DNA of 64,000 bases, taken from the NCBI RefSeq assembly GCF_008274585.1, contig NZ_VTRT01000006.1, positions 248,001 to 312,000 on the forward strand. Reading direction: 5' to 3'. Position numbers and translations under genes: made by a program. The notes under the pieces are model-generated. The model ran no database searches, was not told the DNA's origin, and was given only the letters and a program-made list of their open reading frames with translations. How positions within the stretch are numbered: position 1 is the first letter of the stretch; every line of letters begins with the position of its first letter. This stretch comes from Pedobacter sp. BS3 (lineage in GTDB: Bacteria; Bacteroidota; Bacteroidia; Sphingobacteriales; Sphingobacteriaceae). This document shows, piece after piece, positions 19,943-35,560 of the stretch.

Positions 19943-21808
19943 TTACCTCGCCGATGTTACTGTGCCATTTCTAACAACCGTAGTAGTTACTACGCTACGT
20001 TTGCCTGAAGGTGTAATGACTACACTTTTAATAACACGTTCTTCGCCGGCAGGCACGTTGATAGTTACCGGTTTTTCGTACAGGTAATCCATGCTGTAAG
20101 GAATGTACCCGTTAATGGTATAATATATTTTAGCGCCCTTTACCGGTGCTTTATAGTCCAGCGTGAAGCTGCTGCCGGTTATCGTGGTATCTTTTGCCCC
20201 GATTGGCGTTGGCACGCGATAAAGCAGATCGGTACGGTCAAGTTTAGCCAAAAATTCAGGTAAGCGCTTTTGCGAGAAATCCGTCCAGTTTTTGCTTTGT
20301 AACGGCGTCCATGCTACTTCTGATAAGGCATAAAGCCGTGGTAACAACAGGTATAATGCTTTTTCGGGAGTTTCTACGTATTCTGTCCATAAATTAGCCT
20401 GTACACCCAGAATGTATTTTTGCTGGTCAGGAGTAAGCTCGGCTGGTACGGGGTTGTAAGAATACAATGTTTCTAAAGATACCAAACGGCCGCCAATGGT
20501 TAACGGTTCTTCGGGAGAGCTGCTTTCGGGATGGTCAATGTACAGGTGTGATCCCGGTGTCATAATTACATTATGGTTCTGTTGCGCTGCCGCAATACCG
20601 CCTTTAATACCACGCCAGCTCATTACCGTAGCGTTAGGAGCCAGGCCACCTTCCAGGATCTCATCCCAGCCGATAATGTGTTTACCTTTTTTGTTCAGGT
20701 ATTTTTCAATGCGCTGGATAAAATACGATTGCAGCTCGTGCTCATCTTTGAGGTGTAGTTTTTTGATGCGCTTCTGGCAATAGGGGCAGGTTTTCCAGCG
20801 TGTTTTGGGGCATTCATCGCCGCCAATATGGATGTATTCTGATGGGAAAAGCGGAAGCACTTCATCCAATACATCTTCCAGGAATTTGAAGGTGCTTTCT
20901 TTGCCGGCACAATACACGTCCGGGAAAACACCCCAGCGTTCGGCTGCTTTAAATGGTCCGGGATTATCGCCGCAGGCCAGTTCCGGGTAGGCCGAAAGCG
21001 CTGCCATGGAATGGCCCGGCATTTCAATTTCGGGGATAACAGTAACATATTTTGAGGCCGCATAGGCAACCACTTCCTTTACTTCGTCCTGGGTATAAAA
21101 TCCACCATAGCGTGTGCCATCGTATTTTGGCTGCTTGTCGCGGTTGCTTCCGATCAGGGTTTGTGCCCTGTATGCGCCCACACTCGTTAATTTAGGATAT
21201 TTCTTGATCTCAATGCGCCATCCCTGGTCTTCGGTTAAGTGCCAGTGAAAAGTATTGAGCTTGTATTGGGCCAGCAGATCAATATAGGTTTTCAGGAATG
21301 AAACGGGGAAATAATGGCGTCCCACATCTAAATGTAATCCGCGGTAAGCGAAACGGGGATAATCTTCAATCTCTACAAAAGGCAATGCCTGGTTGCCGGC
21401 ATTTTCGGCCAGCAACTGGGCCAGGGTTTGCAAGCCGTAAAAAATGCCCCGCTCGGTTTTGCCGGTAATGTGTATGCCGGAGCCATTCACGCTCAGGCGA
21501 TATCCTTCTGCAGGAAGGTTGAAATTTTTGTCTAACTGGAGCAGCAGTTGTCCGCTGGTATTAAACGACGCGTTTTGCGCATTGGCAGCGGTGTTATTCT
21601 GTAACATCTGTTCGGCAAAAGATACCAGGTTAAGCGGCGTATTAGTGAACCCCGATGATTTGACGCCGGTATTGGCAAACGGATAGGTGCCATTGTTTAC
21701 CGAAACTTTTACAGGCAGGGGAATAATGTTTACGCTTCCCGTGCCATTTTGTGCCCATGTGCTACACACGGCAACTGACAGGATAAGTAGTAACGAGATT
21801 TTCTTCAT
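19943..21808 (-). CDS. Beta-N-acetylhexosaminidase, GH20
   Basis: 621 aa secreted enzyme that removes terminal beta-linked GlcNAc or GalNAc from glycans. A signal peptide is cleaved near AVCSTWAQ (residue 20). The GH20b alpha/beta domain covers about 25-150. The catalytic TIM barrel covers about 153-500 (FAYRGLHLDVGRHYFPV, FHWHLTEDQGWRIEI). The catalytic Asp-Glu pair is D331-E332 in IHIGGDECPKTRW; the Asp polarises the substrate acetamido group in anchimeric assistance. A C-terminal beta-sandwich (about 535-615) follows. No lipobox, so periplasmic or exported. It is not in an operon with the neighbouring SusC/SusD locus, because a terminator-like hairpin precedes its ATG. GH89 at the window start suggests a common amino-sugar substrate. 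Confidence 0.95.
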   Translation of the reverse strand: MKKISLLLILSVAVCSTWAQNGTGSVNIIPLPVKVSVNNGTYPFANTGVKSSGFTNTPLNLVSFAEQMLQNNTAANAQNASFNTSGQLLLQLDKNFNLPAEGYRLSVNGSGIHITGKTERGIFYGLQTLAQLLAENAGNQALPFVEIEDYPRFAYRGLHLDVGRHYFPVSFLKTYIDLLAQYKLNTFHWHLTEDQGWRIEIKKYPKLTSVGAYRAQTLIGSNRDKQPKYDGTRYGGFYTQDEVKEVVAYAASKYVTVIPEIEMPGHSMAALSAYPELACGDNPGPFKAAERWGVFPDVYCAGKESTFKFLEDVLDEVLPLFPSEYIHIGGDECPKTRWKTCPYCQKRIKKLHLKDEHELQSYFIQRIEKYLNKKGKHIIGWDEILEGGLAPNATVMSWRGIKGGIAAAQQNHNVIMTPGSHLYIDHPESSSPEEPLTIGGRLVSLETLYSYNPVPAELTPDQQKYILGVQANLWTEYVETPEKALYLLLPRLYALSEVAWTPLQSKNWTDFSQKRLPEFLAKLDRTDLLYRVPTPIGAKDTTITGSSFTLDYKAPVKGAKIYYTINGYIPYSMDYLYEKPVTINVPAGEERVIKSVVITPSGKRSVVTTTVVRNGTVTSAR

Positions 21809-21870: not shown

Positions 21871-21877
21871 AATGGCA

Positions 21878-21945: not shown

Positions 21946-21974
21946 CCGTACGTATAGGAGCCCCGGGTTCTACC

Positions 21975-22113
21975 GAGGCTGTCTCAAAAGTCTTCTAAAG
22001 TCATCCTGAGCCTGTCGAAGGATTGGTTCACTATGGCTACAGGCGCTTCCCCCGAGACTTCGGGGTCAGCGTGACTGCAAATAGATGGTTTTACTGACTT
22101 TTGAGACAGCCTC
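21975..22113. mobile_element. 139-bp element with perfect 18-bp terminal inverted repeats, copy A
   Basis: GAGGCTGTCTCAAAAGTC (21975-21992) is exactly complementary to 22096-22113. The inner part contains CTGAGCCTGTCGAAGGATTG and CCCCGAGACTTCGGGGTCAG hairpin-forming sequence. A second copy of identical length is at 46878-47016. There it has a C-to-G change in one arm and the matching G-to-C change in the other. No coding capacity and no clear target-site duplication, so MITE-like. Confidence 0.82.
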
Positions 22114-22129
22114 TTTTTAATGAATTGAC

Positions 22130-23785
22130 TTAATTTATTAATTTTTCGGTATAAGTCCGGCCATCTAAAGCGATGCTGATCACAAACGGCGATTTATATT
22201 TGGCCAGATCTAAGCTAAACTCATTTGCTCCGGTGTTTACATACAAGTCTTTGTTAACCAATATTTTTCCTGAGATATCGCTTGCAACTACTTGTGTTTT
22301 TTGTGCTTTATCTGCGTTCAGCTTAATTTTTACCTGATTGTTTGCGGTTAACCATGCTTTAAAGGTTTTTGCCTGCAGAGAGAATTTTACAGGTATGGGG
22401 CTGTTGGTTTCACTCTTATTATCAAAATCTACCTGCCGTAGCTGGTAGTAATATAAACCGTTACTTACATTAACATCTGTAAAGCTGTAAGATTGTTGCG
22501 TTGAAGTTGTACCATTGCCTTTTACGGTGCCTACCACCTCGAAGTTTTGCCCGTCAACGGATCGTAATATATCAAAATGTGAGTTGTTCTGTTCTGATGC
22601 GGTTGTCCATGTTAGTTTTATACCTTCTGCTGTTTGCCGGGCATTAAAGGCGCTTAGCTTAACAGGAAGCAGGGAATTTTGCACCGGCGCCCAGGCAAGG
22701 CTTCTGATAAAGAACGTTTTGCCATCATCCGGCGCTGTTACACCGGCAAAATCTTTTAACAGGGTAGCTGTGCCGTCCATATCCTCGTTAAAATCTGCCG
22801 TATCTTCTATTTTGACCAATTTCCCCGACGCGTTAATGGCATACAGCTGCACTTTATTAAATGTTCCGTCTCCATTGTATACCACCCTGCCTTCTACATT
22901 TGTTAAGTTCTGATAGGCAACCACCCCTTTATAAGTGAGAGTATTACCTTCCAGGAGATATTTTTTTATTCCATGGTTTGCCGTTGTTCCGTAATCGCAC
23001 AGATACAGTACTTTATCGCCTGTCTTATTTTTAAGAATAACAAAACCATAACAAGATAATGGTTTGGTATCGATAGTGAGAGTAGATGCTGTTTGCAATG
23101 TCGTAGGTAGATCTGCCGTACCTATGCTATATAGTGTAGTGCCATAGCCCATAATAAGTTTTTTATCATTAAGCATTAGGGATCTGGCATAGGTTCCTCC
23201 AATTTTGGTACTTGTTGTTCCTCCTACCGGGATATAATGAACACCGTCTGTATTTGATCCGTTTCCGAACCAGATGCCTGTTCCGTCATAAGACACGGTG
23301 GTTTTCATCCAGGATGCGCCTGGAATATTATTTGTTACTTTGGTTGTACTGCTTACATTTCCCTGATAATTTACCAAAGCAAAAGAGGGATTGGTTGTGC
23401 TATAAGAAATACCGCTAGTGGTGACATCGGTTCCAACAGCAACATCAAAGCCTTGTACCACAAGGTACCGGCCATCAACAGACCGGGAGATGTAGGGAGT
23501 TGCAGACGATGAGCCATTAGCGGTTAAAGCATAGTTTGTACCGTCTGACGTTGTTGGCAGCGGAACTGTTTTTGTTATGCCGGCAGCAATATCATCCGGG
23601 TCATAGGCATCTAAATACATGGGCACCGCTTTATTGCCGTTGTTTGCAGCGGTTCCTCCGCTTTCAGTGCCATAGTTGGGGATCCTTAATAACACCAGAT
23701 TTCCTTCCTGGAAATCCTGGGCAAACAACAATGAGCTTGTAAAACAAGCCGTCATTGTACAGAGAAGTAATTTTTTCATTTTCAT
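22130..23785 (-). CDS. Secreted protein with T9SS-type C-terminal domain
   Basis: 551 aa. Signal peptide MKMKKLLLCTMTACFTSSLL, cleaved near FAQ (residue 23). Residues about 25-370 look like a beta-propeller or repeat domain (NLVLLRIPNYGTESGG, RYLVVQGFDVAVGT, KLIMGYGTTLYSIG, LAWAPVQNSLL). A fibronectin-III-like region (LPVKLSAFNARQTAEGIKLT near 375, then HFDILRSVDGQNFEVVGTV) leads to a C-terminal sorting-type domain (about 470-551) ending FVISIALDGRTYTEKLIN. That architecture is standard for type IX secretion cargo. It is the last gene of the minus-strand locus led by the SusC at 29825-33262, although 328 bp separate it from the EEP gene. Function unknown; a binding or scaffold role at the surface is plausible. 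Confidence 0.78.
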   Translation of the reverse strand: MKMKKLLLCTMTACFTSSLLFAQDFQEGNLVLLRIPNYGTESGGTAANNGNKAVPMYLDAYDPDDIAAGITKTVPLPTTSDGTNYALTANGSSSATPYISRSVDGRYLVVQGFDVAVGTDVTTSGISYSTTNPSFALVNYQGNVSSTTKVTNNIPGASWMKTTVSYDGTGIWFGNGSNTDGVHYIPVGGTTSTKIGGTYARSLMLNDKKLIMGYGTTLYSIGTADLPTTLQTASTLTIDTKPLSCYGFVILKNKTGDKVLYLCDYGTTANHGIKKYLLEGNTLTYKGVVAYQNLTNVEGRVVYNGDGTFNKVQLYAINASGKLVKIEDTADFNEDMDGTATLLKDFAGVTAPDDGKTFFIRSLAWAPVQNSLLPVKLSAFNARQTAEGIKLTWTTASEQNNSHFDILRSVDGQNFEVVGTVKGNGTTSTQQSYSFTDVNVSNGLYYYQLRQVDFDNKSETNSPIPVKFSLQAKTFKAWLTANNQVKIKLNADKAQKTQVVASDISGKILVNKDLYVNTGANEFSLDLAKYKSPFVISIALDGRTYTEKLIN

Positions 23786-24113
23786 AGCGTTACTTTTTTA
23801 AGTTTTAATTATTGGAATGGCAAAAGACCGATGTTGCCTGTTTGTTCCCCTGGTATTTTTCTTAGAAACTGCCTGAAAGTAGTTGTCATCATTTGGAGCT
23901 GGCCAAGAAGCTCTCATTCTGATCCTGTACATACAGGAGGAAAATCCGCCAGAGATGCTTAGAATACTTTACTTCGCAACTGCTTCGCGGTTTCCTTTTA
24001 CGATCCCGTATGTACGAGATCATTGAAATAACAATGCTTTTTGACTTTTTGGTCAGTTCCCAATCTCTGCGTTAAATGGCAGAAACTTAGTTTCCCGGAT
24101 GCATTTTGTATTT
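23786..24113. other. Gene-free spacer with two related palindromes
   Basis: No gene is supported. CCTGTA-CA-TACAGG (23924-23937) is a perfect dyad. GATCCCGTA-TG-TACGAGATC (24002-24021) has one mismatched pair. Both share a GTA-YR-TAC core, and a similar CCGTACGTATAGGA string occurs at about 21946-21959, on the far side of the downstream gene. These may be repeat remnants or regulator sites for the T9SS cargo gene. Confidence 0.5.
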
Positions 24114-25304
24114 TTAATTAGCCAATCTGACGTAAACGGGATAATGATCTGACGCTTCGTCTGTAAAGGCTTTTTGTAAGATGTCTGAGTATTTTATATC
24201 GAAACTGGTCCAGCCCCTGGTAAAAATATAATCGTACCGCCAGCCCTGGTTGTAATTTTCATCATCATATTTATTGTTCATAACCGGCAGGGTTGCTTTA
24301 AATTCATGATGCTTTATTCCGTAAACATCCAGGAAACTATTGTTCAGCATTGAATTTGTAACCGTATAATCTATGATGGTGTTGGGGTTATATTTTTTAT
24401 AGTTCAGGGTTATGTCTTTTCCATATAAATTTTTGTCCAGCTCATTATATGAATTAAAATCGCCGGCAACAATGATCTTCTCATTGGCGGGAATAGTTTT
24501 AATACGGGTAATAAGCGCCGCTATCTCCGCCTTTCTTTCATCAAGCGTTTTTGGGGAAAGATGTATGGCAAATAAATTGATGCCTTTTACCTTAGCGTAA
24601 ATGTAGCCGTGAACAAAGGGGGCGCTCGTTACCCTGTCGGCATTCTCTATAGCGTATTTAGAGGTGATACCGGTTGGATAGCCGGTTGTTTTTAAGAGTA
24701 CACTGTTATTATGCCCGTAAGTTTTGGCAAAAGTATTCAGTGTGTTTTCGGTAAACTTGTTCAGCTCCTGGAAAAAAATAATATCCGGGTTATATTTTTT
24801 AATCCATTCTGCAAACGCTTTTTTTCTGTCCGCATTGTTTTGAAAGCCTTCCAGCGTATTATACGAGAAAATGGATAAGGTGCTAACAGGGTTCATATAT
24901 ACCTCTAATTTGGCCGGTATGTTGGTTAACTGGTAAGAGATGGGCTCATGGTCTTTCTCTATAAAATCGAATTTAGCGCCATTGGCGGTTAGATCTTTAG
25001 CTATTTTTAGTGATATTTCTCCCGATCCGTCAATGGTAGCTTCCCTTATTCTGAATATTCTGTTCAGGTTGTTTACGCCGGAAACCGTCAGATCCACATT
25101 TCCGATCTTCTGCCCCTGGTTATCTTTAACCAGAATAGTAACGGCAATGCTATCGCTGTTACCGGTATCTTCTTTTTTAGAAACGGGCTCCTGGTCTTTT
25201 ACTTCTGTCTTTTTGCCGCAGGAAGTAACTAACAGGGATATGCACACTATGATACAATACCCTATCACCATAGGGTATTGTATAAATTTTCTGATCGCAT
25301 TCAT
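24114..25304 (-). CDS. Lipid-anchored endonuclease/exonuclease/phosphatase (EEP) family protein
   Basis: 396 aa. The lipobox LLVTSC gives Cys29, so it is anchored, probably in the outer membrane. Residues about 50-130 are a short beta-sandwich (VTILVKDNQGQKIGNVDLTV). Residues about 145-396 form the EEP domain: SIFSYNTLEGF, the metal-binding Glu in FFQELNKF, GDFNSYNELD and the terminal SDHYPVYVRL. EEP enzymes hydrolyse phosphodiesters or phosphomonoesters in substrates as different as DNA, sphingomyelin and inositol phosphates, so specificity cannot be read here. It is clearly paralogous to the protein at 27392-28252 (shared blocks VLLKxTGYPxxxTSKY and GDFNSY). It is cotranscribed with the DUF5689 gene, 9 bp upstream. 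Confidence 0.9.
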   Translation of the reverse strand: MNAIRKFIQYPMVIGYCIIVCISLLVTSCGKKTEVKDQEPVSKKEDTGNSDSIAVTILVKDNQGQKIGNVDLTVSGVNNLNRIFRIREATIDGSGEISLKIAKDLTANGAKFDFIEKDHEPISYQLTNIPAKLEVYMNPVSTLSIFSYNTLEGFQNNADRKKAFAEWIKKYNPDIIFFQELNKFTENTLNTFAKTYGHNNSVLLKTTGYPTGITSKYAIENADRVTSAPFVHGYIYAKVKGINLFAIHLSPKTLDERKAEIAALITRIKTIPANEKIIVAGDFNSYNELDKNLYGKDITLNYKKYNPNTIIDYTVTNSMLNNSFLDVYGIKHHEFKATLPVMNNKYDDENYNQGWRYDYIFTRGWTSFDIKYSDILQKAFTDEASDHYPVYVRLAN

Positions 25305-25313
25305 TTCAGGTTG

Positions 25314-27386
25314 TTATTTATTATACTTAACAGATACATGTCCTAACCTGGATGCTTTGTTGCTTGTAAAGTTTGCTTCAGAATCGCCGCCGGTACTGCT
25401 TCCGGCCATTTTATTTTTCACCCGTAGCCGGATATAAACCACATCCTGGTTAAGCAGGGCGATAGGAAGGTTGAAATTGACCACCTTAAACCCGGGAACC
25501 TGGGTAATTAAGGTGTTGTTCCAGTTTACAACATCTTCCATGGTATATTCGGTAATATAATTCCAGTTCCCGCTGTCCATATCCCTGCTTGTAGACCATT
25601 CTGCGATAAAATTTCTGGGGCCGCCAGTATCAGAGTTACCCTCTATCTGCATGGATAGCTGTTTACTGATGTTTTTAGTTGAAAATTTAATGATCCATGC
25701 CTCACCCCTATTGTGAGCAGTGTTCCACCAGGAAGTAGCAAATTGCCAGGCATCACCTACCATTCCTTTTTGTGCATTGGTGCCGTTCCCCAGCCCGGTC
25801 AAACCTAAATAGTTTGTAGTTTTTGTAATTCCGGTAGATGTGTTTTCAGGTATAGCGCTGTGCTCCAGCCGTCCCGTTCCAATGGTAGATGCCGATGGAT
25901 CGGTTGTAGAAAAAGTGCTCCATTCTACCAATACTTTAGAAAAGCCGTCGTCCCTGTTTTTATTTAAAACGATCTCTGATCTGTCCAGCGGTCTGATGGA
26001 ATATTTACCGATATTCCCGCCGTATCTTGGATAATTTTCAGATACAATAACCCCCGAAATCTTTCCGGAACCCTGGGGAACGGGTACACCATTTCTTATC
26101 AGGCTGGTAAGACCGTCTGCGGCTTTTTCATCATTGGTTAACAGGTACATGCTATCGCCGTTAATATCCCTGATATTTGTAGGATAACAGTCAACCCGGG
26201 CGTAGTACCCATAATTGGTATTGTAATAAGTGCCGAAGGGTACGGATATTTCTACATCTTTTAGTGTTATGTAGGTGTACATGTCATTGTCTGTCAGGTC
26301 TCTCATGTATTTCTCCCTTGGAATGAGCGGTGTAGAGCTGGCAACTTTGTCAATAATGTTGTTAGACGGAAAGTCTGAAATTGTTGCTGTATTAGGATTT
26401 GTTGTTTTAGATAAGGTTGCTCCCTTTAGCCAGAGCTTAACTTTTTCATTTTTACTGAACAGGTTATCACCCGGGGTTTTCGTCCTGATCTTTAATCCAG
26501 ATGTTCCGTCTAAGCTTTGTACATACACCGTAATGGCGTTTTCTGTGTGATCAACCGTGTGCGCCGGAGTGCCTTTATTGGGGTTTAATGCCAGGTTAGG
26601 GTTTCCTTTATCGGCCAGCACAATACCTTCAATGTAGATGTCTTCGGTAATTGTTCCGGAGCCCAGAGCATTTTTAACATAGTTAAAGTCTTTTAATACG
26701 GCATTATCATACGCCGCTTTAGGGTTTTGGGTTACCAGGATGGAATCTGTTATGGTTGCGCCCAGCATATCGATGTACAATAGTTTTATGGTTGCTGTCC
26801 TGGCGTCATCATTACTGCTATTCTGGGTAACCTTAAAGGTAAGATTAGTGCCATCATAGGTCAGGTTTGATATCCAGTTCTCCTGCCCGGGAGAGGTGTA
26901 TTTTATTTTTTGCTCTATTTTATCAAAATCAATATTTGTTGACAGCCCGGTTTTAATATCGCCGGCAGGCGCTGTAGCGTTAAGGGTTCTGTCTGCAAAC
27001 TTTAAATGCTGGGCAATGCCTTTTTGCTGCAGAAATACAGTATCTGTAAGGCCTTTTGCCGTAATATAAATTTCTGTGGCCCGTGCCGGATTATCCTTAT
27101 TCGACGTAACGGTTGCGGTGATATACGATTTACCACTGCCTTCTGTTCTATCAAGTGTAACCCAGTCGTCTCCCGGTTTTACAGCTACTTTCCAGTTGTT
27201 ATCTGAATATACCTGTATTTTAGTGGATGTAGCCGAGTCGGGTAGCCTGATGATCCGGGCATTTAATGCCAAATCTGTTCTGAATTGTACCAGGTTGTCT
27301 TTTTGACATCCCAGTATGGTAATGAAAGAAAAAATAACCAGGGTTATATTTCTCCATTTATTTGTCAATATATTTAACCTTTTCAT
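25314..27386 (-). CDS. BACON and DUF5689 domain lipoprotein
   Basis: 690 aa. The lipobox ITILGC gives Cys27. A BACON-type beta-sandwich covers about 45-125 (NNWKVAVKPGDDWVTLDRTE, FLQQKGIA), and a second BACON-like repeat may follow to about 220. DUF5689 spans about 230-465 (EDIYIEGIVLADKGNPN, KVKLWLKGATLSK, KISGVIVSENYPRYGG). The C-terminal about 200 residues are beta-rich (MQIEGNSDTGGPRNFIAEWS, VVYIRLRVKNKMAGSSTGG), resembling a carbohydrate-binding or jelly-roll module. BACON domains are usual in surface lipoproteins of Bacteroidota glycan loci. The gene lies between two EEP hydrolases with gaps of 9 and 5 bp, so it is probably a surface binding partner for the same substrate. No catalytic motif seen. 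Confidence 0.82.
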   Translation of the reverse strand: MKRLNILTNKWRNITLVIFSFITILGCQKDNLVQFRTDLALNARIIRLPDSATSTKIQVYSDNNWKVAVKPGDDWVTLDRTEGSGKSYITATVTSNKDNPARATEIYITAKGLTDTVFLQQKGIAQHLKFADRTLNATAPAGDIKTGLSTNIDFDKIEQKIKYTSPGQENWISNLTYDGTNLTFKVTQNSSNDDARTATIKLLYIDMLGATITDSILVTQNPKAAYDNAVLKDFNYVKNALGSGTITEDIYIEGIVLADKGNPNLALNPNKGTPAHTVDHTENAITVYVQSLDGTSGLKIRTKTPGDNLFSKNEKVKLWLKGATLSKTTNPNTATISDFPSNNIIDKVASSTPLIPREKYMRDLTDNDMYTYITLKDVEISVPFGTYYNTNYGYYARVDCYPTNIRDINGDSMYLLTNDEKAADGLTSLIRNGVPVPQGSGKISGVIVSENYPRYGGNIGKYSIRPLDRSEIVLNKNRDDGFSKVLVEWSTFSTTDPSASTIGTGRLEHSAIPENTSTGITKTTNYLGLTGLGNGTNAQKGMVGDAWQFATSWWNTAHNRGEAWIIKFSTKNISKQLSMQIEGNSDTGGPRNFIAEWSTSRDMDSGNWNYITEYTMEDVVNWNNTLITQVPGFKVVNFNLPIALLNQDVVYIRLRVKNKMAGSSTGGDSEANFTSNKASRLGHVSVKYNK

Positions 27387-27391
27387 ATTGA

Positions 27392-28252
27392 TTAGTTTTT
27401 GAGTTCGATAATAATGGGTATATGATCTGAATGGGTTTTGGTGAAATCATCCCGCAGAAAACGGGCATCGGTCACCTTATTGCCAAGATCTTTGCTGACG
27501 TAGATATAATCTATCCGGTTTTTGCCCGGGATGATATTTTTTGCATCGGCCGGATGTTTTTCAGCCTGCCTTTTCAGCACATCGATCAGCCCGAAATCAA
27601 GTATTTTCTGCTGCACCTCGAAATCGAGATACTGCCCATCGATCAGGTTATCGTGGAAGGGATATTTCTTGGCAAGATCCTGCAGCCATTTTACCGTTTT
27701 GCCATCGGCATAGTTTGCCTTGTCCAGCGGCGAATACGAGTTAAAATCGCCCATGATCATCCACCGCTTTTGCGAAGGCTGTGCGGCAATGGTTTGCAGT
27801 ATGACATCTATTTCCTCACGGCGTTTGCGATACTTATGCGGCGAAAGATGCAGTACGATCACATGGTAATCCTTAATGCGTGCCAAAATAAATCCGTGAT
27901 GCATGTTATCCAGCACACGGTGCACGTTTACAATAGGATATTTCGAGGTAAGCGCCACCGGGTAGCCGGTTTCCTTTAGCAAAACAGCATACGGATGCCC
28001 ATACTGATGCGCCATTTCCTCCAGCGATTTCTGGGTGAATTTATTGCATTCTTCCAGCGCCAGGATATCCGGGTTTTGTTGCTTTAACCAAGCTACAAAA
28101 TCTTTCTTCCCGGCCGTGGTATCGCGTACCATACCTTCCAGGATGTTATAGCTGATCACTTTAAGCGATTGCTGGGCGAATATTCTGGAACTGCCACCGG
28201 TAATAATGCTAATTACCAGGATGATATAGCTTAATGATCTCATTATACTCAT
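27392..28252 (-). CDS. Secreted EEP-family hydrolase
   Basis: 286 aa. The signal peptide ends at RIFAQQS (about residue 26) and there is no lipobox, so the enzyme is periplasmic or exported. The EEP domain fills the rest: KVISYNILEGMV, the catalytic Glu in LALEECNKF, VLHLSPHKYRKRREEID, GDFNSYSPLD and the terminal Asp-His pair in SDHIPIIIEL. It is a shorter paralogue of the lipid-anchored EEP at 24114-25304. The family covers nucleases, sphingomyelinases and phosphoinositide phosphatases. The SusC/SusD context suggests that it processes an imported phosphoester-containing substrate. It starts 10 bp after the susD stop and is followed 5 bp later by the DUF5689 gene. Confidence 0.92.
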   Translation of the reverse strand: MSIMRSLSYIILVISIITGGSSRIFAQQSLKVISYNILEGMVRDTTAGKKDFVAWLKQQNPDILALEECNKFTQKSLEEMAHQYGHPYAVLLKETGYPVALTSKYPIVNVHRVLDNMHHGFILARIKDYHVIVLHLSPHKYRKRREEIDVILQTIAAQPSQKRWMIMGDFNSYSPLDKANYADGKTVKWLQDLAKKYPFHDNLIDGQYLDFEVQQKILDFGLIDVLKRQAEKHPADAKNIIPGKNRIDYIYVSKDLGNKVTDARFLRDDFTKTHSDHIPIIIELKN

Positions 28253-28262
28253 GATTGAATGA

Positions 28263-29798
28263 TTACTGGCCGGTATACGCCGGGTTATCCAAAACGCCGC
28301 CAGACCGCAGTACTTCGCTGTCCGGGATGGGGTAGTACTGGTGAAATGGGCGCAGGTTCAACAGAATATCGTTAAACTCTAAAGCGATAGTAGACCTGAG
28401 GTCATCATAATAAGTACCCCATCTTACCAGATCCCATTTGCGGCCATATTCGCCCATCAGTTCACGGGCCCGCTCTTCTTTTACCTCTTTAAAGAAAGCC
28501 TCTTTGCCCGGATAGGCGGATAATATTAATGTAATGCTGTTACCTTCTTTGGCAGCTTCATCCTGGGCTCTCTTTTTTATTTCGTTAATAGCCGACATTG
28601 CCAGATCTTCATCGCCTAACTCATTGGCGCATTCGGCCATCATCAGCAGCGCATCAGCAAAGCGGAATACTTTCTGGTTGTTGCCGTCAGAAATGTTATC
28701 CATACCGGGGCACCAGAATTTAGGCCCGAACCAGGGTTTGCCGGTTCCGTTGTTTGACATCGGGCGGCTAAACCAGGTTCCGTTGTACGAATATCCCAGG
28801 ATCATATTGCGCCGCGGATCGTACACGTTGTAAAGCGACATGAAATATTCGGATGGTGTTACTGATGTGTACGGATTGGCTTTAGAACCTAATTCCGGAA
28901 TATTAACGCCGTTATAAGTACTGGTTCCCGATGTTTTGCTGGGCGTAAAGAAGCAGGCCACCTGAGTTGTTTTTTTCAATCCTGTGGCAGACCATGTAAA
29001 CTGCACTTCAAAGATAGATTCGGGTGTATTTTTATTCCTGAACCAGGTATCCTGTAAAGGGTATTGGTCAAGCTGTCCGTAAACCTTTTGTATTTCTTTC
29101 AGGGCGGTCAACGCGGTTTGATAATCCTTGTTCCACATGGCCATTTTAGCAATGAGCATATAAGCCATTGAGCCTGATATGCGGTTTTGCGGTACATCCG
29201 AAGTGCGTTGTTTAGGCAGGCTGGGGGCATATTGTTGCAGTTCGGCAATCATAGAATCGCGGGTAGCTGTTGCACTCATCCGGCCCAGCTTTGAAACATC
29301 CTCAAGGGTTTTCAGATTAGCTACATCCTGCGTATAGAAAGGTACATCGCCAAAGGTGCATGTAAGTACATAATAGTATAATGCCCGCAGGGTTACCGCT
29401 TCGCCGATAAGGCCGGGCTTTTTGGCCTCATCAATAGTGGCGCCCCGTATGCCGGCAATGGCAGCATTACAGTACATAACGCCTTTGTAGCATTGTGCCC
29501 ACACATCGTCGCCCATACCGGGATTTGCCGGTGAGATCTCAAGCTTGGCATCAACAGACGATGAGTTGAGAAAAGCCAGGTCGGTTACAGCCTCGTTGGC
29601 GATCATTAAACCCTGGTTAAAAATGCTGGTTAGCGGGTTGTAACATCCGTTAAGGGCGGCTATACACTGACCTTCATTTTTATAAAACTGGTCGGGCGAG
29701 ACGAAGCTCTTCGCTTCTTCGTTGAGGGTATCTTTGCAGGAGCTCAAAGCAAACACTGCAAAAAACAGGTATAATAAATATAAGCTATTCCGTTTCAT
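28263..29798 (-). CDS. SusD/RagB-family surface lipoprotein
   Basis: 511 aa. The lipobox FALSSC gives Cys21, followed by an acidic KDTLNEE stretch typical of surface-exported Bacteroidota lipoproteins. SusD landmarks are FVSPDQFYKNEGQCIAALNG, the LRALYYYVLTCTFGDVPFYT segment near residue 140, FRFADALLMMAECANELGD near 370, and KEERARELMGEYGRKWDLVR near 440. The C-terminus HQYYPIPDSEVLRSGG is the usual SusD end. It is the lid partner of the SusC encoded 26 bp upstream. The substrate is unknown; the downstream EEP hydrolases point to a phosphorylated compound. Confidence 0.96.
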   Translation of the reverse strand: MKRNSLYLLYLFFAVFALSSCKDTLNEEAKSFVSPDQFYKNEGQCIAALNGCYNPLTSIFNQGLMIANEAVTDLAFLNSSSVDAKLEISPANPGMGDDVWAQCYKGVMYCNAAIAGIRGATIDEAKKPGLIGEAVTLRALYYYVLTCTFGDVPFYTQDVANLKTLEDVSKLGRMSATATRDSMIAELQQYAPSLPKQRTSDVPQNRISGSMAYMLIAKMAMWNKDYQTALTALKEIQKVYGQLDQYPLQDTWFRNKNTPESIFEVQFTWSATGLKKTTQVACFFTPSKTSGTSTYNGVNIPELGSKANPYTSVTPSEYFMSLYNVYDPRRNMILGYSYNGTWFSRPMSNNGTGKPWFGPKFWCPGMDNISDGNNQKVFRFADALLMMAECANELGDEDLAMSAINEIKKRAQDEAAKEGNSITLILSAYPGKEAFFKEVKEERARELMGEYGRKWDLVRWGTYYDDLRSTIALEFNDILLNLRPFHQYYPIPDSEVLRSGGVLDNPAYTGQ

Positions 29799-29824
29799 TG
29801 GATTTTTCCTTTCTTTTTTGATGG

Positions 29825-32800
29825 TCAGAATTTAAGTTCAGCGCTAAAGGTTACCGTACGGCTGTTAGGATAGGCGCCGTTATCCATACGGCGAATGGTT
29901 GAGCCGCTGGCTTCGGTAGATACTTCCGGGTCATAGCCGTTGTAGTACTTCCATAAGTACAGGTTATTGCCGCTGGCGGTAAGCGTAAGCGAGTTCAGCT
30001 TGTTTTTGGTGGCCTTTGCCAGATCGAACGAATAGCTTACCGACGCATTTTTCAGGCGCAGGAAGGTGGCGCTGTGCACAAACCTGTCGTTGGGGATATC
30101 GTCTTTTGAATCGGCCCGCGGATAATCTGAGTTGGGGTTACGCACCGGATGCCAGGCATTGACCATGTACCGGTACTGGTTGCTCAGGTAAGTTCCTGTA
30201 CCCATAAACAGTTCGGTAGGATTATAAATTTTTCCACCCAGCGAATAGTTAAAGTAAAAGCTAACGTAAAAACGTTTGATCTTAAAGGTATTCTGCAAAC
30301 CACCATACAGGTACGGATCGGCATTGCCCAGGTAAACCAGGTCGTCGTTGTTAAGCACACCGTCGTGGTTTTGGTCAATATAACGTTGCCGGCCGGGTGT
30401 ATAATATGCTGTAGAGGCCGAGGCGTATTTTTTATCGATAGCGTTCTGGTCTATCTCTGCCTGCGTTTTCCAAACGCCTGCATATTGCATTCCCCACAAG
30501 GCGTTTAACGGGCGCCCCTGCACGTAACCGTACATCATGTACTGGGCGCCGTAAGGGTTAATGTAGGTTGGTATACGGTCTAAGCCGCCAATGTCGTTAA
30601 CCATTTGGTCATTATGGGCTAAAGTGAGCGATGTTGACCAGGAGAATTTCGGTTTGCGGATATTGTTGGAGTTAATGGTCAGCTCCACACCTTTGTTTGA
30701 TGTTTTACCAATGTTGGCAATACGGCTGTTGTACCCGGTTTGGGTAGGCAACTGTACGGTAAGCAGCAGATCGCTGGTTTTTGACTGGTAAACATCCAGC
30801 GTAAAATCAAACCGGTTGTTCAGGATAGAAAGGTCTAATCCGGCGTTATACGATGCTGTTTTTTCCCAGGTTAATCCTTCGTTTGCTATACGCGATGGAT
30901 AGTAGGATACGGGAATTGCACCATCAAATAGGTATCCGGATGACGATGAAGCAAGCTGGGATAAGGATTGATAGTTAGAAATGGCATCGTTACCAGAAAC
31001 GCCGCCACTCAGGCGGATGGCCAGCTCATCTATTGCTTTTACATTTTTCAGGAAATTCTCTTTTTTAAGATTCCATTTTACCGCGGCCGAAGGGAAGAAC
31101 GCCCATTTATGGTCGGCTGCAAAGTTAGAAGCCGCATCCACACGCCCGGTTAAGGTGAGGTAGTATTTGCTGGCATAGTTATAATTAATGCGGGCCAGGT
31201 TAGATATTTTCCGCTGGTCGCTGTAACCCGAACCGGCGTTTAATGTTTCCTTTGATGGTATGGCTGCCAGGTCGTTTGTATTGATATCATCTACAAAATA
31301 ACCGTCGCCGCTGGCGTACAGATTGGCATTCCATGACGATTGATATGTAAACCCGTAAAGGGCATCAAAGTGGTGAACCTTATCCCAGGTCTTTTTGTAG
31401 CTGACGGTGTTTTCGTTCAGGATATTATTAGCCCGGTAGCCGCTTTTGTAGGCATAGGCGCCGGTATTTTTACTGGCCCGGGTAGGCAGGGTTCCGGGAT
31501 AAAAGTTATCGTCAAAACGGTTATAATCAAATAATGAGACCGAGCTCCGGATGGTAAGCTCTTTGATAGGATTTACTTCTACAAAAAGCATGGGCGAGAG
31601 GCTTTTCCTGATCTGGTCTTTGCGCTGTAGCTTGGAATTGGCTAAGGGCGAATCGAACAGGGTGCCACTGTACCATTGCGTATTCCAATCGTTAAAGCTG
31701 CCGTCGGGTTTGTAGGCTGCAATGGTAGGCGCCAGGAAAATGGTTGACCGGTACCATAAGGTTTGCGTGCCGATGTCAGCTTTATTAAGCGCCTGGTTAA
31801 TGTACGAGTAGTTGAGCCGCAACCCTGCCTTTACGTATTTGCTGAAGGTTTGGTCGAGGTTGAGGCGCACCTGGTAACGCTGCATGCCGCTGTTGATCAC
31901 AATACCCTGGTTATTATTAAAGTTACCAGAGAAGTAGTATTTGGTGGATTTATTACCGCCCGAAGCCGAAAGGGTATAGTTCTGGTAAGGTGCGGTATGG
32001 GTAATTTCTTTGGTCCAATTGGTGCCTTCGCCTAATGAAGCAGGATCTGGGTAAGGATACTGTTCCAATGGTTTTATCTGGTTGGCTGTGCTGGCAAAGT
32101 AATACCGGTCGTTTTGCAGCTCGGCAAATTCTGTGGCATTCATCAGGTCAAGATAGCGGGGCAACTGCGATGCGCCCACATCCGTACGAAACGAAAAATT
32201 GGTTTTCCCGTCGCTTCTGCCACTTTTTGTGGTGATAACAATTACTCCATTGCTTCCGCGTGAGCCGTAAATAGCCGTTGATGATGCATCTTTCAATACC
32301 TGGATAGATTCAATATCGCTTGGGTTCAGGTCATTCAAATCATTTATGGCATCCATTACCCCGTCTACTACAAACAAGGGCTCGTTAGTGGCGGTAATAG
32401 AGCGGGTTCCGCGTATGCGGATGGAAGTTCCTGCGCCAGGTTCGCCGGTTGTAGATACAATTTCGGCTCCTGCGATGCGGCCTTGCAACATCTGGTCAAC
32501 ACGAGGAACGGGAATATTTTCAATATCCTCGGTTTTTACCACCGATACAGCGCCTGTCAGATCGCTTTTCTTTACGGTTCCATAGCCGATAACCACTACT
32601 TCCTGCAGGTTTTTCAGGTCTTCGGTCAATGTAATGTTCAGCATGGTCTGGCCTGGTGTTACTGCCACTTCGCGTGAGATGAATCCGGTATAGGTAATAA
32701 CCAGTATGGGCTTATCAACAGCAGTTTTAAGTATAAATTCACCATTGCTGTTAGTTTGAGTAGCTACCGACGTGCCTTTCAGGCGTACCGAGGCGCCGGG

Positions 32801-33262
32801 TAACGGCTCGCCTTTGCTATCGGTAACTTTACCCCGGATGTCACGCACCGGCGCCGGAACATCTTCTGTGGATGCAGCAGATAGTGGCTTTCGCTTAACC
32901 AGTATCGTTTTATCCATAATGCTGTAGGTTAAGGGCTGGTCGCGGAATAATTCCCCGAGAATGTCTGGCAGGGAAGCGCTGCGGGTAATGGTTACGGGTT
33001 TTGCCTTGTTAAGAAATTCATTTTTGTACAGGAAATTGTAGCCTGTTTGTTGCCGTATGGCATCAAAAACGTTCTCAAGTTTTGCATTGTGAACGTCTAA
33101 ACTTACCTGTTGCGAATAAGCTGTAGCGCTAACTTGCAAACATGCAACTAAAAGAAGGATACCTGTGATTTTCATGATACAAATAAATCGTCGGATACGC
33201 GGCCAATCATAGCCAAAAATTGATTCCTGCCCTTTCGGACAAAAAAGCAATAGATGTTTCAT
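29825..33262 (-). CDS. SusC/RagA-family TonB-linked outer membrane protein with STN signalling domain
   Basis: 1145 aa. A long n-region precedes the hydrophobic core MKITGILLLVACLQVSATAY (from residue 30), so translation may start at 33175 instead. The STN domain is at about 55-115 (AKLENVFDAIRQQTGYNFLY). It is followed by a carboxypeptidase regulatory-like domain (about 140-225), the plug (about 230-350, with YGSRGSNGVIVITTKSG) and the beta-barrel ending TVTFSAELKF. The STN domain contacts the periplasmic part of FecR, so substrate import can switch on the ECF sigma encoded upstream. It forms an import complex with the SusD encoded next. It is preceded by fecR and the sigma gene, the standard trans-envelope signalling arrangement. 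Confidence 0.96.
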   Translation of the reverse strand: MKHLLLFCPKGQESIFGYDWPRIRRFICIMKITGILLLVACLQVSATAYSQQVSLDVHNAKLENVFDAIRQQTGYNFLYKNEFLNKAKPVTITRSASLPDILGELFRDQPLTYSIMDKTILVKRKPLSAASTEDVPAPVRDIRGKVTDSKGEPLPGASVRLKGTSVATQTNSNGEFILKTAVDKPILVITYTGFISREVAVTPGQTMLNITLTEDLKNLQEVVVIGYGTVKKSDLTGAVSVVKTEDIENIPVPRVDQMLQGRIAGAEIVSTTGEPGAGTSIRIRGTRSITATNEPLFVVDGVMDAINDLNDLNPSDIESIQVLKDASSTAIYGSRGSNGVIVITTKSGRSDGKTNFSFRTDVGASQLPRYLDLMNATEFAELQNDRYYFASTANQIKPLEQYPYPDPASLGEGTNWTKEITHTAPYQNYTLSASGGNKSTKYYFSGNFNNNQGIVINSGMQRYQVRLNLDQTFSKYVKAGLRLNYSYINQALNKADIGTQTLWYRSTIFLAPTIAAYKPDGSFNDWNTQWYSGTLFDSPLANSKLQRKDQIRKSLSPMLFVEVNPIKELTIRSSVSLFDYNRFDDNFYPGTLPTRASKNTGAYAYKSGYRANNILNENTVSYKKTWDKVHHFDALYGFTYQSSWNANLYASGDGYFVDDINTNDLAAIPSKETLNAGSGYSDQRKISNLARINYNYASKYYLTLTGRVDAASNFAADHKWAFFPSAAVKWNLKKENFLKNVKAIDELAIRLSGGVSGNDAISNYQSLSQLASSSSGYLFDGAIPVSYYPSRIANEGLTWEKTASYNAGLDLSILNNRFDFTLDVYQSKTSDLLLTVQLPTQTGYNSRIANIGKTSNKGVELTINSNNIRKPKFSWSTSLTLAHNDQMVNDIGGLDRIPTYINPYGAQYMMYGYVQGRPLNALWGMQYAGVWKTQAEIDQNAIDKKYASASTAYYTPGRQRYIDQNHDGVLNNDDLVYLGNADPYLYGGLQNTFKIKRFYVSFYFNYSLGGKIYNPTELFMGTGTYLSNQYRYMVNAWHPVRNPNSDYPRADSKDDIPNDRFVHSATFLRLKNASVSYSFDLAKATKNKLNSLTLTASGNNLYLWKYYNGYDPEVSTEASGSTIRRMDNGAYPNSRTVTFSAELKF

Positions 33263-33368
33263 ACATTTGTGTGTTTGGGTTAATAAACAAGGATTAATGG
33301 TCTCAATCAGTTAATCGGGATTAACCTGAATGCCAGCTGCTTTACTGATCATAGAACAGCCGGTCTTG

Positions 33369-33395
33369 TTCGCTCCGGCCGTCATCCGGAGCGAA
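33369..33395. other. Perfect 10-bp hairpin between fecR and susC
   Basis: TTCGCTCCGG (33369-33378) pairs perfectly with CCGGAGCGAA (33386-33395) around the 7-nt loop CCGTCAT. Its T-rich flank (TCTTTTTC) is on the plus strand, opposite to the direction of fecR and susC, so it is not a simple terminator for this operon. It may be an mRNA processing or stabilising element that lets susC be expressed more strongly than fecR. Confidence 0.6.
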
Positions 33396-33476
33396 TCTTT
33401 TTCAAGGTTACCGATGCAGGGTCATTAGGTAATTCTTTCTTTCATAATCAAAAATTTAATCTTACAATCTGGTTAA

Positions 33477-34694
33477 TTAGTTATGTGTTACGGTAACCTG
33501 TCTGCCGGTTACAGAAAAATTCAGATCGCTGGTTTCCTGGAGCATCTTCAATACCCGTGAGAGTGGAACATCACGCGATATATAGCCTGTCAGGTGTCCG
33601 TCAGCGTTTATGTCGCTATAAGCTACTTCTATATCGTACCAACGCGAAAGCTGCCGCATAATGGTTTTCAGCTCGGCATCCTTAAACCTGAACAGGTTGT
33701 TTTTCCAGGCAATGGCTGCTTCGGTATCGGCATTTTCTACTTTGATGGTATTACCTGTAATAATGGATTGCTGGCCGGGTTGAAGCCTCACCCCGGCCCT
33801 CTCCAAAGGAGAGGAAGCATTAGGCTGTGAAACTTTTACGCTTCCTTCCAGCAGTGTTGTTTTTATGGCTTTTTCATCGGTATATGCGTTGATGTTAAAG
33901 TGTGTACCTAATACTTCTACCTGCTGGTTGTTAGTTGTTACTATAAACGGTATCCTTTTACCTTCAGCCTTACTACCTTCTATCTTTTTCGCTACCTCAA
34001 AATACGCTTCGCCGGTTATTTCTACCCGTCGCTCGCTGGCGGCAAAAACCGATGGAAAGCGAATAGACGATGCTGCATTTAGCCATACCCTTGTTCCATC
34101 GGGAAGGGTAACCTGGTAAGTGCCGCCAACCGGGGTTTGTACCATCAGTATATGGCTGTTTTGAACAGTAGCCCGTTGTTTTGTATAGCTTGCTACCTGT
34201 AATTTTCCGTCCTGTACCTTGGTAATGGTAGTGCTGCCCTGGCTGGCCAGCGTACCGTTTTGCCGGTCGTTCAGGATAATTTTTTCGCCGTTGGCCAGTG
34301 TAAGGGTTGCTTTATTGCCGCCGGGTAAAATATCGTGCATTATGGTGTTTTTATTGGCTATTACCGGATGTTGCTGGTTAAAATACAGCCATGTACCTAC
34401 AGAGATAAGTATGAGTATGGCTGCGGCGGCAACCCAGCGAAATATGGAGTATCTTATAACAGGCCGTATTTGTTTAGGCTTGTCGATAGCCGTAATGGTT
34501 GTCAGCATATTCTGCCAATGTGCCGATTGGGCAACAGGGGCTTTATCCCGGGTATTTAATATCGTGTCGATCTTTTCGCTGAAAAGTGAGTTGTTATCCT
34601 CATGAAACAACAATAAAAGTTCCTGCGCTTCTGCATCAGTAAGCTGATTATCTGCAAATTGTTGTAACAGATAATTGGTTCGTTCTTTATTCAT
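33477..34694 (-). CDS. FecR-family anti-sigma/sigma-regulator
   Basis: 405 aa inner-membrane protein. A cytoplasmic N-terminal part (about 1-80) would hold the sigma factor. One membrane segment lies at about 86-106 (WVAAAAILILISVGTWLYF). The periplasmic FecR domain (about 115-300) has VQTPVGGTYQVTLPDGTRVW and LNAASSIRFPS. The C-terminal DUF4974 domain (about 335-400, RFKDAELKTIMRQLSRWYDI) ends in a secretin-like fold. It links the STN domain of the downstream SusC to the upstream ECF sigma. Anomaly: residues about 294-304 (SSPLERAGVR) are encoded by a palindromic repeat element related to intergenic repeats, in frame within the FecR region. Confidence 0.93.
   Translation of the reverse strand: MNKERTNYLLQQFADNQLTDAEAQELLLLFHEDNNSLFSEKIDTILNTRDKAPVAQSAHWQNMLTTITAIDKPKQIRPVIRYSIFRWVAAAAILILISVGTWLYFNQQHPVIANKNTIMHDILPGGNKATLTLANGEKIILNDRQNGTLASQGSTTITKVQDGKLQVASYTKQRATVQNSHILMVQTPVGGTYQVTLPDGTRVWLNAASSIRFPSVFAASERRVEITGEAYFEVAKKIEGSKAEGKRIPFIVTTNNQQVEVLGTHFNINAYTDEKAIKTTLLEGSVKVSQPNASSPLERAGVRLQPGQQSIITGNTIKVENADTEAAIAWKNNLFRFKDAELKTIMRQLSRWYDIEVAYSDINADGHLTGYISRDVPLSRVLKMLQETSDLNFSVTGRQVTVTHN
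33785..33815. repeat. Palindromic intergenic-type repeat inserted in frame in fecR
   Basis: CCTCTCC-AAA-GGAGAGG (33798-33814) is a perfect dyad preceded by CCTCACCCCGGC. The combination CCTCACCCC...CCTCTCCAAAGGAGAGG is a common dispersed repeat of Bacteroidota intergenic DNA; a divergent copy is at 294-341. Here it is read on the minus strand as SSPLERAGVR inside FecR. Confidence 0.7.
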
Positions 34695-34797
34695 TAATAG
34701 TTTTTAAGCTGGAGTGCTGAAAGCGCACTTTTTTATCCCATTTCTGATAGTAAGAAACGTAAGTACGGATCAAGGACTATCGGGATGGTGAATTTTT

Positions 34798-35391
34798 TTA
34801 TTTTATAAGGAACAGGACGAAAAATAACGAGAAGGTATAGCCCCGGTCTGCCAGGTACCGGCGTATAATGCCGAGCGATGTAACCAGGGCATTTTTTACC
34901 GTATTGGGCGAAAGCTGCAGTTCTGCTGCAATCTGCGGAATGGTGAGGCCTTCGTTACGGCTTAGCAGGTATATGCGGCGGCGTTGTGCGGAGAGGTTGT
35001 CTACAGCTTTAGATATGAGCGTGTTAATTTCATTCAGTCGCACGCTGTCTAAGGTAGCGTTGCTGTATGTTACCGTATTGGCAGCAATCGTGTCCATCAC
35101 TTTTTCCTTTTGCTGCTTTGCCCGCAGGTAGTTCAGACACTCGTTAGAAGCATATTTATATAGCCATGCACGCACATTGTTTACTTCTTCCAGCTTATCG
35201 CGGTTAAGCCATACCCGGATAAATATATTTTGTATTACTTCCTCGGTAGCGTAATCTGATTTTGTAAATCGGGTAATAAAGGGCTGTAATACAGGTAGAA
35301 ATTTGTAAAACAGGCAACTAAATGCCTGCTCATCGCCTTCGGCAATGCGTGAAAGCAGCTCTTTTTCAATATCAACTATCTCTGCCGGCAA
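34798..35391 (-). CDS. ECF RNA polymerase sigma factor paired with FecR
   Basis: 197 aa. Region 2 covers about 20-90 (FSCLFYKFLPVLQPFITRF, YATEEVIQNIFIRVWLNRDK). Region 4 covers about 125-180 with the helix-turn-helix IPQIAAELQLSPNTVKNAL. The hydrophobic C-terminus (YTFSLFFVLFLIK) is common in this Bacteroidota group. It lies 103 bp upstream of fecR, with susC after that, the canonical sigma/FecR/SusC cascade. It should transcribe the susC-susD-EEP operon when the FecR signal arrives. A TATCTTTA element on the minus strand (35427-35420), one base off the -7 consensus, is a possible promoter. Confidence 0.93.
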   Translation of the reverse strand: MPAEIVDIEKELLSRIAEGDEQAFSCLFYKFLPVLQPFITRFTKSDYATEEVIQNIFIRVWLNRDKLEEVNNVRAWLYKYASNECLNYLRAKQQKEKVMDTIAANTVTYSNATLDSVRLNEINTLISKAVDNLSAQRRRIYLLSRNEGLTIPQIAAELQLSPNTVKNALVTSLGIIRRYLADRGYTFSLFFVLFLIK

Positions 35392-35530
35392 GAATGACCT
35401 TTTTATTCAGATTAAAATCTAAAGATAGAAATTAGCCGTTAGAATTACAGAAGTTCAATGTTAAGTTTTTTTAAAGTTTTAAAAGGGTTTTAAAGTAAAA
35501 GATATTTTCCCGGAAGAGATAATAATAAAA

Positions 35531-35560
35531 GAGGTTGTCTGCATCTGGTTGAGACAGCCT
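35531..35560. repeat. Short inverted repeat resembling a solo end-to-end remnant of the 139-bp element
   Basis: GAGGTTGTCT (35531-35540) and GAGACAGCCT (35551-35560) form a hairpin. The sequences match the outer ends of the 139-bp element (GAGGCTGTCTC/GAGACAGCCTC) with almost all of the interior missing. It may equally be a small terminator of independent origin. Confidence 0.45.

Follow-up and report, generated by a model that had tools for sequence, protein, structure and literature searches.

A conserved SusC/SusD locus with EEP-fold hydrolases and a DUF5689 lipoprotein in Pedobacter sp. BS3, a candidate system for phosphoglycan uptake

Gene content and conservation of the EEP locus

The window analyzed here, a stretch of 64,000 nucleotides from Pedobacter sp. 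BS3 (contig NZ_VTRT01000006.1, positions 248,001 to 312,000 of the forward strand), carries a SusC/SusD locus on its minus strand at ~19943-35391. The locus encodes two hydrolases of the endonuclease/exonuclease/phosphatase (EEP) fold, EEP-A and EEP-B, and is referred to below as the EEP locus. A preliminary description of this DNA reported a sigma factor/FecR/SusC(STN)/SusD head followed by genes for an EEP protein, a DUF5689 lipoprotein and a lipid-anchored EEP protein. This arrangement was reproduced with Pfam and NCBIfam profiles, and the genes in and beside the locus are as follows:

34798..35391, minus strand: extracytoplasmic function (ECF) sigma factor with a TTG start (PF04542 and PF08281, Sigma70_r2/r4)
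33477..34694, minus strand: FecR anti-sigma factor (PF04773, PF16344)
29825..33262, minus strand: SusC, a TonB-dependent transporter, with STN (PF07660), CarbopepD_reg_2 and Plug domains (TIGR04056, 845 bits)
28263..29798, minus strand: SusD lipoprotein, the marker of the conserved clade (PF07980, PF14322; lipobox-like LSSC)
27392..28252, minus strand: EEP-A, secreted EEP-fold hydrolase (PF03372; signal-peptide-like N-terminus)
25314..27386, minus strand: BACON-DUF5689 surface lipoprotein with a C-terminal β-sandwich resembling a carbohydrate-binding module (CBM) (PF13004, PF18942; lipobox-like ILGC)
24114..25304, minus strand: EEP-B lipoprotein (PF03372; lipobox-like VTSC)
22130..23785, minus strand: secreted protein with no family match, 328 bp after EEP-B; operon membership uncertain
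19943..21808, minus strand: secreted β-N-acetylhexosaminidase of glycoside hydrolase family 20 (GH20; PF00728, 404.9 bits)

SusC and SusD lie side by side, 26 bp apart, as in a polysaccharide utilization locus (PUL). The subsequent gaps down to EEP-B are 10, 5 and 9 bp, in agreement with the 5-10 bp given previously. BACON matches in the lipoprotein fall into two stretches, and its DUF5689 domain scored 34.1 bits against a cut-off of 28.6. The composition of the locus is unusual. The absence of a glycosidase, noted earlier, held inside the interval 22130-35391, but the GH20 gene lies just one gene past its left edge on the same strand. The intervening protein (22130-23785) had no Pfam or NCBIfam match, and no other open reading frame (ORF) in the sets searched matched its N-terminal 330 residues; its C-terminal part is similar to proteins of other loci, such as L009 and L001 (L, G and C numbers are our handles for loci, genomes and contigs). 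An Rfam scan of 18000-38000 gave no match. Promoter-like sites were not in excess (30 vs 33.8 in shuffles), and terminator-like sites were more frequent than in shuffles (32 vs 18.5).

To follow a proposal in the preliminary description, we asked whether SusC/SusD, EEP and DUF5689 are conserved as a unit. With the SusD protein as query, 300 genomes of the order yielded 30 matches (E <= 1e-40) in 26 genomes, and all 30 neighborhoods were read. At SusD identity of >=45%, window included, an EEP gene was present in the operon of 17/17 loci, and DUF5689 was detected by our own profile in 14 of these 17. In the remaining three (L041, L045, and L047), an ORF of equal length occupies the place of DUF5689; in L031, the EEP gene lies downstream of the DUF5689 gene. 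Among the 13 SusD relatives of <=40% identity, four had an EEP gene in the operon (L001, L016, L049, and L052) and nine did not; in L056, an EEP-profile match lies ~10 kb off on the opposite strand, outside the operon. A collection of named organisms, from which the best 80 of 546 SusD relatives were taken, gave the same picture. All 14 loci of >=43% SusD identity had a downstream EEP gene, and 12 of the 14 had DUF5689; they belong to Pedobacter, Chitinophaga, Sphingobacterium, Niabella, Desertivirga, and Parapedobacter. The two without a DUF5689 profile match are the Niabella loci, of which L088 is split into many ORFs. The other 66 SusD loci (25-36% identity; seven of these stretches shorter than 15 kb) had no adjacent EEP gene, with L151 and L157 having one elsewhere in the stretch. 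The two sets of counts overlap because seven of the 14 named loci are taken to come from genomes already in the 300-genome set; there are 28 distinct EEP-bearing loci in all. A search of 151 genomes of the family with the BACON-DUF5689 protein itself gave matches at E <= 1e-10 in seven, the genome of the window among them. SusC-SusD-EEP(-DUF5689) is a discrete, clade-specific conserved unit.

Two observations were made at related loci. The SusD match of L001 (15851-17308, contig C12 of the same genome, a related EEP-DUF5689 locus) contains one in-frame TAA, so this copy may be degraded. In Pedobacter frigoris (L078), a 3-keto-disaccharide hydrolase gene (PF06439, 16141-17115) is located some way after the EEP-DUF5689 unit.

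EEP proteins, GH20, and esterases

The AlphaFold2 model of EEP-A (pLDDT 91) has the EEP fold. Residues N36, E68, H135, D169, N171, D248, D276, and H277, which we take to be the EEP metal/catalytic positions, were invariant in an alignment of 19 sequences that includes the window. In a tree of 32 chosen EEP proteins, EEP-A grouped with the EEP proteins of loci L039 and L041 (support 100/100) within a wider group of SusCD-linked EEP proteins of its own genome. EEP-B grouped with EEP proteins of the DUF5689-GDPD operons L002 and L069 (88/77); as a single query against the genome contigs it found no relative. When the EEP-A profile was run against its own genome (8 of 36 candidates scored), all six matches at E <= 1e-35 lay within SusC/SusD operons, with DUF5689 in five of the six. 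One own-genome DUF5689 SusCD operon (L008) combines two EEP genes with two NAGLU (GH89-type) genes. The Gfo/Idh/MocA protein encoded in L009 was considered as a GH109 enzyme and rejected, its solved relatives listed being oxidoreductases.

Across the phylum, the EEP-A profile found matches at E <= 1e-35 in 6 of 296 genomes, own included. Among the members of the EEP-A clade elsewhere, the L204 gene follows FecR-SusC-SusD with a divergent sigma factor gene, the L201 protein is fused to a sialate-O-acetylesterase domain, and the L203 gene lies beside a sulfatase gene with SGSH_C; L199, L200, and L202 were covered as ORF lists only. Of these settings, the fusion and the sulfatase neighbor point to carbohydrates. 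A plasmid search with EEP-A returned five distant matches only, the best in a Phocaeicola record in a region without annotation. No trend was apparent in isoelectric points: that of EEP-A in the window is 9.0, and among the 19 EEP ORFs in L078-L091 seven fall at 8.5-9.3 and twelve at 5.3-6.7.

The preliminary description had stated that the EEP and DUF5689 genes stand in place of glycoside hydrolases. This was not supported: a GH20 gene is a near neighbor in the window, and four relatives (L039, L040, L041, and L052) have one within the EEP operon itself (gaps 9-73 bp). L041 has the order SusC-SusD-EEP-688 aa-GDSL-GH20, with 9 bp ahead of GH20; L052 has SusD-EEP-284 aa-GH20-EEP, where the gaps are 56 and 18 bp. 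When the window GH20 was searched in 13 chosen genomes (82 matches, 81 non-self), the GH20s of L039, L040, L041, and L052 ranked 1, 2, 3, and 5 of the 81. In a tree of 12 chosen GH20s, the window GH20, the four operon GH20s, and a GH20 of genome G006 formed one group (99/98). The GH20s beside distant SusD relatives in L058 (the window's genome) and L095 (Niastella) formed a separate group (100/100). The window GH20 may be co-expressed with the SusCD-EEP genes. Esterases of the GDSL_3/CE2 type were detected by profile in 4 of 21 EEP-bearing loci of the 300-genome set (L033, L039, L040, and L041) and in 1 of the 14 named loci (L088). They are GDSL_3/GxDLY in L040 and L041, a match to our own profile in L039, and CE2_N with GDSL in L033.

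DUF5689 and the second DUF5689 operon

The modeled part of the BACON-DUF5689 lipoprotein reached pLDDT 76.7 overall, and its predicted C-terminal part matched CBM22/CBM35 and Eph-type folds (Z 10-12). A profile search for solved relatives gave none (best E 0.2). The OB-fold suggested for DUF5689 was not among the listed matches to the whole model, but this list was filled by the C-terminal domain, and the absence does not exclude such a fold.

DUF5689 was present in at least 111 of 151 genomes of the order. From among the matches listed, 58 loci with 59 DUF5689 ORFs by profile were chosen, and genes on the same strand within 8.5 kb were counted. A PF12771-type SusD gene was near 55 of the 59 ORFs, a GDSL gene near 22, and a phosphoesterase gene near 46: calcineurin-like MetallophosN/C (40), GDPD (27), PLD (5), and EEP, PLC, and NPP (1 each). 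The 13 ORFs with no phosphoesterase nearby were those of L060, L061, L062, L074, L077 (second ORF), L173, L174, L176, L178, L187, L189, L196, and L197. Other scanned neighbors included GlpT above its cut-off (L065) and an FGGY kinase, a MIP channel, and a DAO/DAO_C protein (L075). In the genome of the window, 6 of 10 DUF5689 matches lie within ~5 kb of an EEP match (rough binomial 1.2e-6, a value that is inflated because EEP genes cluster). Overall, DUF5689 thus accompanies phosphoester uptake; EEP is rarely near it in the 59-ORF sample. The earlier idea that DUF5689 may mark a substrate class is partly right, in that DUF5689 co-occurs with phosphoesterases, though with EEP for just one of the 59 ORFs.

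Three side observations concern DUF5689. In L061 (8607-12725), a DUF5689 protein (229.3 bits) is encoded next to a 916-residue CarboxypepD_reg protein, a pair that resembles the Riemerella transformation pair described below. PLD-like similarity matches by the DUF5689 operons of L068 and L070 lie in 975-residue ORFs, compared with 390-residue PLDs elsewhere. In the Bacillus subtilis control genome, PF18942 (DUF5689) matched above cut-off; this is perhaps the nuclease YhcR.

A second SusC/SusD operon in the window ends with a DUF5689 gene, as described previously. A plasmid search with its DUF5689 protein gave no match. Its genes and those upstream of it (655-12623) are:

655..1419, minus strand: DeoR-family regulator (PF00455, PF08220), probably part of the locus, judging from its position
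1686..3314, plus strand: flavoprotein resembling glycerol-3-phosphate dehydrogenase/oxidase (PF01266 and PF16901; best NCBIfam match 297.8 bits, under the cut-off of 360)
3323..4267, plus strand: DUF6528 protein (PF20138, 223.5 bits)
4428..5756, plus strand: GlpT glycerol-3-phosphate transporter (TIGR00712, 725.6 bits; cut-off 632.55)
6210..9428, plus strand: SusC (TIGR04056, 595.5 bits)
9438..11012, plus strand: SusD-like_2 (PF12771, 330.3 bits)
11040..12623, plus strand: DUF5689 protein (PF18942, 66.3 bits)

By its predicted gene functions, this is a glycerol-3-phosphate type locus. No GDPD was found among its scanned genes; its relatives add GDPD and calcineurin-like phosphoesterase genes and, in L075, the FGGY kinase and MIP channel mentioned above. 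DUF6528 genes are found repeatedly next to SusD genes of both kinds (L058, 7560-8603; L096, 11520-12563; and the window).

Possible substrates of the EEP locus

We tentatively favor the reading that the locus at ~19943-35391 is a SusCD system for a phosphodiester-bearing glycan that contains β-linked N-acetylhexosamine (HexNAc), in which the EEP enzymes strip the phospho-substituent and GH20 then cuts. A phosphoglycan target is suggested because the core enzymes are phosphodiesterase-fold hydrolases, which some loci of the clade supplement with a β-hexosaminidase and acyl esterases as accessory enzymes. From the gene content we infer the substrate, the order of steps, and the signaling as follows. 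The polymer would be a glycan with β-linked N-acetylhexosamine that is substituted or linked by phosphodiesters (or phosphomonoesters) and in many cases also carries O-acyl esters. SusD and the BACON-DUF5689 lipoprotein, the latter with a CBM-like domain at its C-terminus, would hold it at the surface. Lipid-anchored EEP-B and secreted EEP-A would hydrolyze the phospho-links, the secreted GH20 would remove the β-HexNAc exposed after this step, and SusC would import the resulting pieces. Ligand-loaded SusC would signal through its STN domain to FecR and on to the ECF sigma factor, which would raise expression.

Candidate polymers, between which we do not choose, are β-GlcNAc-substituted wall teichoic acid and N-acetylglucosamine (GlcNAc) glycans modified with phosphocholine or phosphoethanolamine. 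The sensor-controlled phosphoester system of the preliminary description is retained in that SusCD surrounds phosphodiesterase-fold enzymes and is kept with them as a unit. Of the substrates named there, DNA and phosphosphingolipid are disfavored because neither calls for a β-hexosaminidase and carbohydrate-esterase-like enzymes; a teichoic-acid-like polymer fits GH20 and is still a candidate. A more specific proposal is full utilization of wall teichoic acid. The EEP enzymes would cut the polyol-phosphate chain or linkage unit, GH20 would remove β-GlcNAc, the GDSL/CE2-type esterases of relatives would remove ester groups, and the DUF5689-GlpT operon would import glycerol phosphate, with DUF5689 marking the uptake of Gram-positive wall phosphodiester polymers. 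We consider this scheme rather improbable. A literature search for teichoic acid with SusD returned no title on uptake.

The usual interpretation of a SusCD locus is import of carbohydrate, and since 2020 some such loci have been taken for phosphate scavengers; the EEP locus may join these two roles by combining phosphodiesterase-fold enzymes with a β-hexosaminidase. In Flavobacterium johnsoniae, the phosphate utilization systems (PusCD) comprise a SusCD-like pair with phosphomono- or diesterases, and import of organic phosphorus has been proposed (PMC8115612). The EEP locus is similar in that its SusCD genes adjoin EEP-family genes, that is, predicted phosphoesterases. However, PusCD is defined there by induction at low phosphate, whereas the ECF sigma/FecR pair of the EEP locus suggests induction by substrate, and the F. 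johnsoniae enzymes described there are PhoA and metallophosphatase-type enzymes instead of EEP and DUF5689 (and GH20). Compared with a PUL, the EEP locus shares ECF/FecR, SusC, SusD, and a surface lipoprotein, as well as GH20 and esterases in some relatives, but its core enzymes are EEPs.

GlcNAc-PDase is a secreted EEP enzyme that cleaves phosphocholine or phosphoethanolamine off C6 of GlcNAc, after which added β-hexosaminidase frees the sugar in the assay (PMC10704324). EEP-A is likewise secreted and consists of a single EEP domain, and by motif it has the same metal-site residues: N36, E68, D169, N171, D276, and H277 correspond to N60, E89, D204 (printed D04A), N206, D266, and H267 of GlcNAc-PDase, paired by motif and not by alignment. 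The GlcNAc-PDase group is, however, described as mostly from Clostridia, and the term SusD is absent from that paper. A further precedent for the chemistry is PDB 4c1r, named a mannosyl-6-phosphatase, which was among the EEP-A profile matches. If the favored reading is true, it would give a testable substrate class (phosphoglycans, for example teichoic acids or zwitterion-modified GlcNAc glycans) for a gene set of Sphingobacteriaceae/Chitinophagaceae, a chemical context for the uncharacterized DUF5689, and enzymes to strip phospho-substituents from glycans.

Several results weigh against the phosphoglycan reading. Of the 21 EEP-bearing loci in the 300-genome set, five have GH20 (the window, L039, L040, L041, and L052), and the 14 named loci have none. 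With 5 of 28 distinct EEP-bearing loci compared with 3 of 72 distinct EEP-less SusD loci (L058, L095, and L147), Fisher p was 0.04, the loci not being independent. Because only 5 of the 28 have it, GH20 could be an optional accessory. The window GH20 gene and EEP-B have one gene between them, with gaps of 328 and 321 bp. The fourth-ranked match to the window GH20, that of G006 (L205), lies apart from the EEP locus of its genome and has no EEP gene in the 18 kb around it, and both EEP proteins of L052, though encoded in a GH20 operon, fall outside the EEP-A group. PF23226 (PGAP2IP-type EEP, near GlcNAc-PDase), our proxy for membership in the GlcNAc-PDase/PGAP2IP cluster, matched neither EEP-A nor EEP-B at E 0.01; its cut-off of 27 bits was passed by EEP proteins of L008 and L011 of the same genome, and two EEP proteins of L009 matched below it. 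Finally, the best 50 structure neighbors of EEP-A (Z 22.8-25.1) were of ExoIII/AP-endonuclease/LINE-1 types plus one uncharacterized EEP. The best fold matches were NExo, ExoIII, Mth212, and AP endonucleases (APE1), several with bound DNA. In the profile search of solved structures, the top match was 3g6s, a putative EEP covered in part, and the full-length matches were of ExoIII type.

These nuclease-like neighbors are the first argument for uptake of extracellular nucleic acid, where the EEPs would be nucleases, the DUF5689 protein would bind DNA, SusCD would import oligonucleotides, and GH20 would be incidental or loosen matrix polysaccharide. The B. subtilis PF18942 match also speaks for this alternative, as does Riemerella anatipestifer. 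In the accessible part of PMC8459023, the DUF5689 protein RA0C_RS04920, encoded beside a putative outer-membrane barrel, is tied to natural transformation, and insertions in the SusC/RagA gene RA0C_RS09840 lowered transformation from 5.5e-5 to 2.8-4.2e-6. The pairing of a DUF5689 surface protein with an outer-membrane barrel recalls the EEP locus, but that part of the paper names no SusD or EEP for the pair, and the pair resembles L061, whose DUF5689 protein scores far higher on the family model than that of the EEP locus (229.3 vs 34.1 bits).

We nevertheless regard nucleic acid uptake as unlikely. The fold shared by EEP-A and nucleases is no proof of substrate. Both EEP proteins fell far under the cut-off of the ExoIII equivalog xth TIGR00633 (EEP-A 50.0 bits, EEP-B 36.0, cut-off 99.05), and the invariant H135 of EEP-A aligns with the Tyr of NIYFPNG in Mth212, which presumably has a catalytic role. 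GH20 and esterases lie in the operon of some relatives, and EEP clade members elsewhere are fused to an acetylesterase or adjacent to a sulfatase. Among the neighbors scanned, which are only a part of all, we saw neither a nucleotidase nor a nucleoside gene.

Uptake of phospholipid head groups or glycerophosphodiesters, as in the second DUF5689 operon of the window, would account for the phosphoesterases near 46 of the 59 sampled DUF5689 ORFs and for the clustering of EEP-B with EEP proteins of DUF5689-GDPD operons. It is also consistent with a phospholipase-C-type Phosphoesterase gene near the Niabella locus L088 and with a phosphocholine-specific phospholipase C gene beside an EEP gene in L012. 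Sphingomyelinases were absent from the best 50 fold matches to EEP-A, which does not exclude a likeness. However, GDPD was found by our own profile in none of the 21 and 14 EEP-bearing loci (GlpT, GlpK, and GlpF were not searched there), the SusD of the EEP locus is PF07980 as opposed to PF12771 in the second operon, and GH20 is left unexplained. This alternative, too, seems improbable to us. A literature search returned nothing on SusC/SusD with phosphodiesterase and phospholipid.

An ordinary PUL, in which the EEPs would be phosphomonoesterases that dephosphorylate sugars with no phosphodiester involved, is quite doubtful: 4c1r, named a mannosyl-6-phosphatase, is among the EEP-A profile matches (E 1.3e-06), but the match covers positions 31-173 only and is the last in the best 60 of 77.

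EEP and GH20 genes also lie close together in a separate cluster on contig C23 of the same genome (L012, 5249-8768; L209, 3166-10970). This cluster has an EEP gene, the gene for the phosphocholine-specific phospholipase C (TIGR03396, 763 bits), GDSL-type esterase genes and another GH20 gene by our own profiles, and an ORF whose N-terminus looks sulfatase-like.

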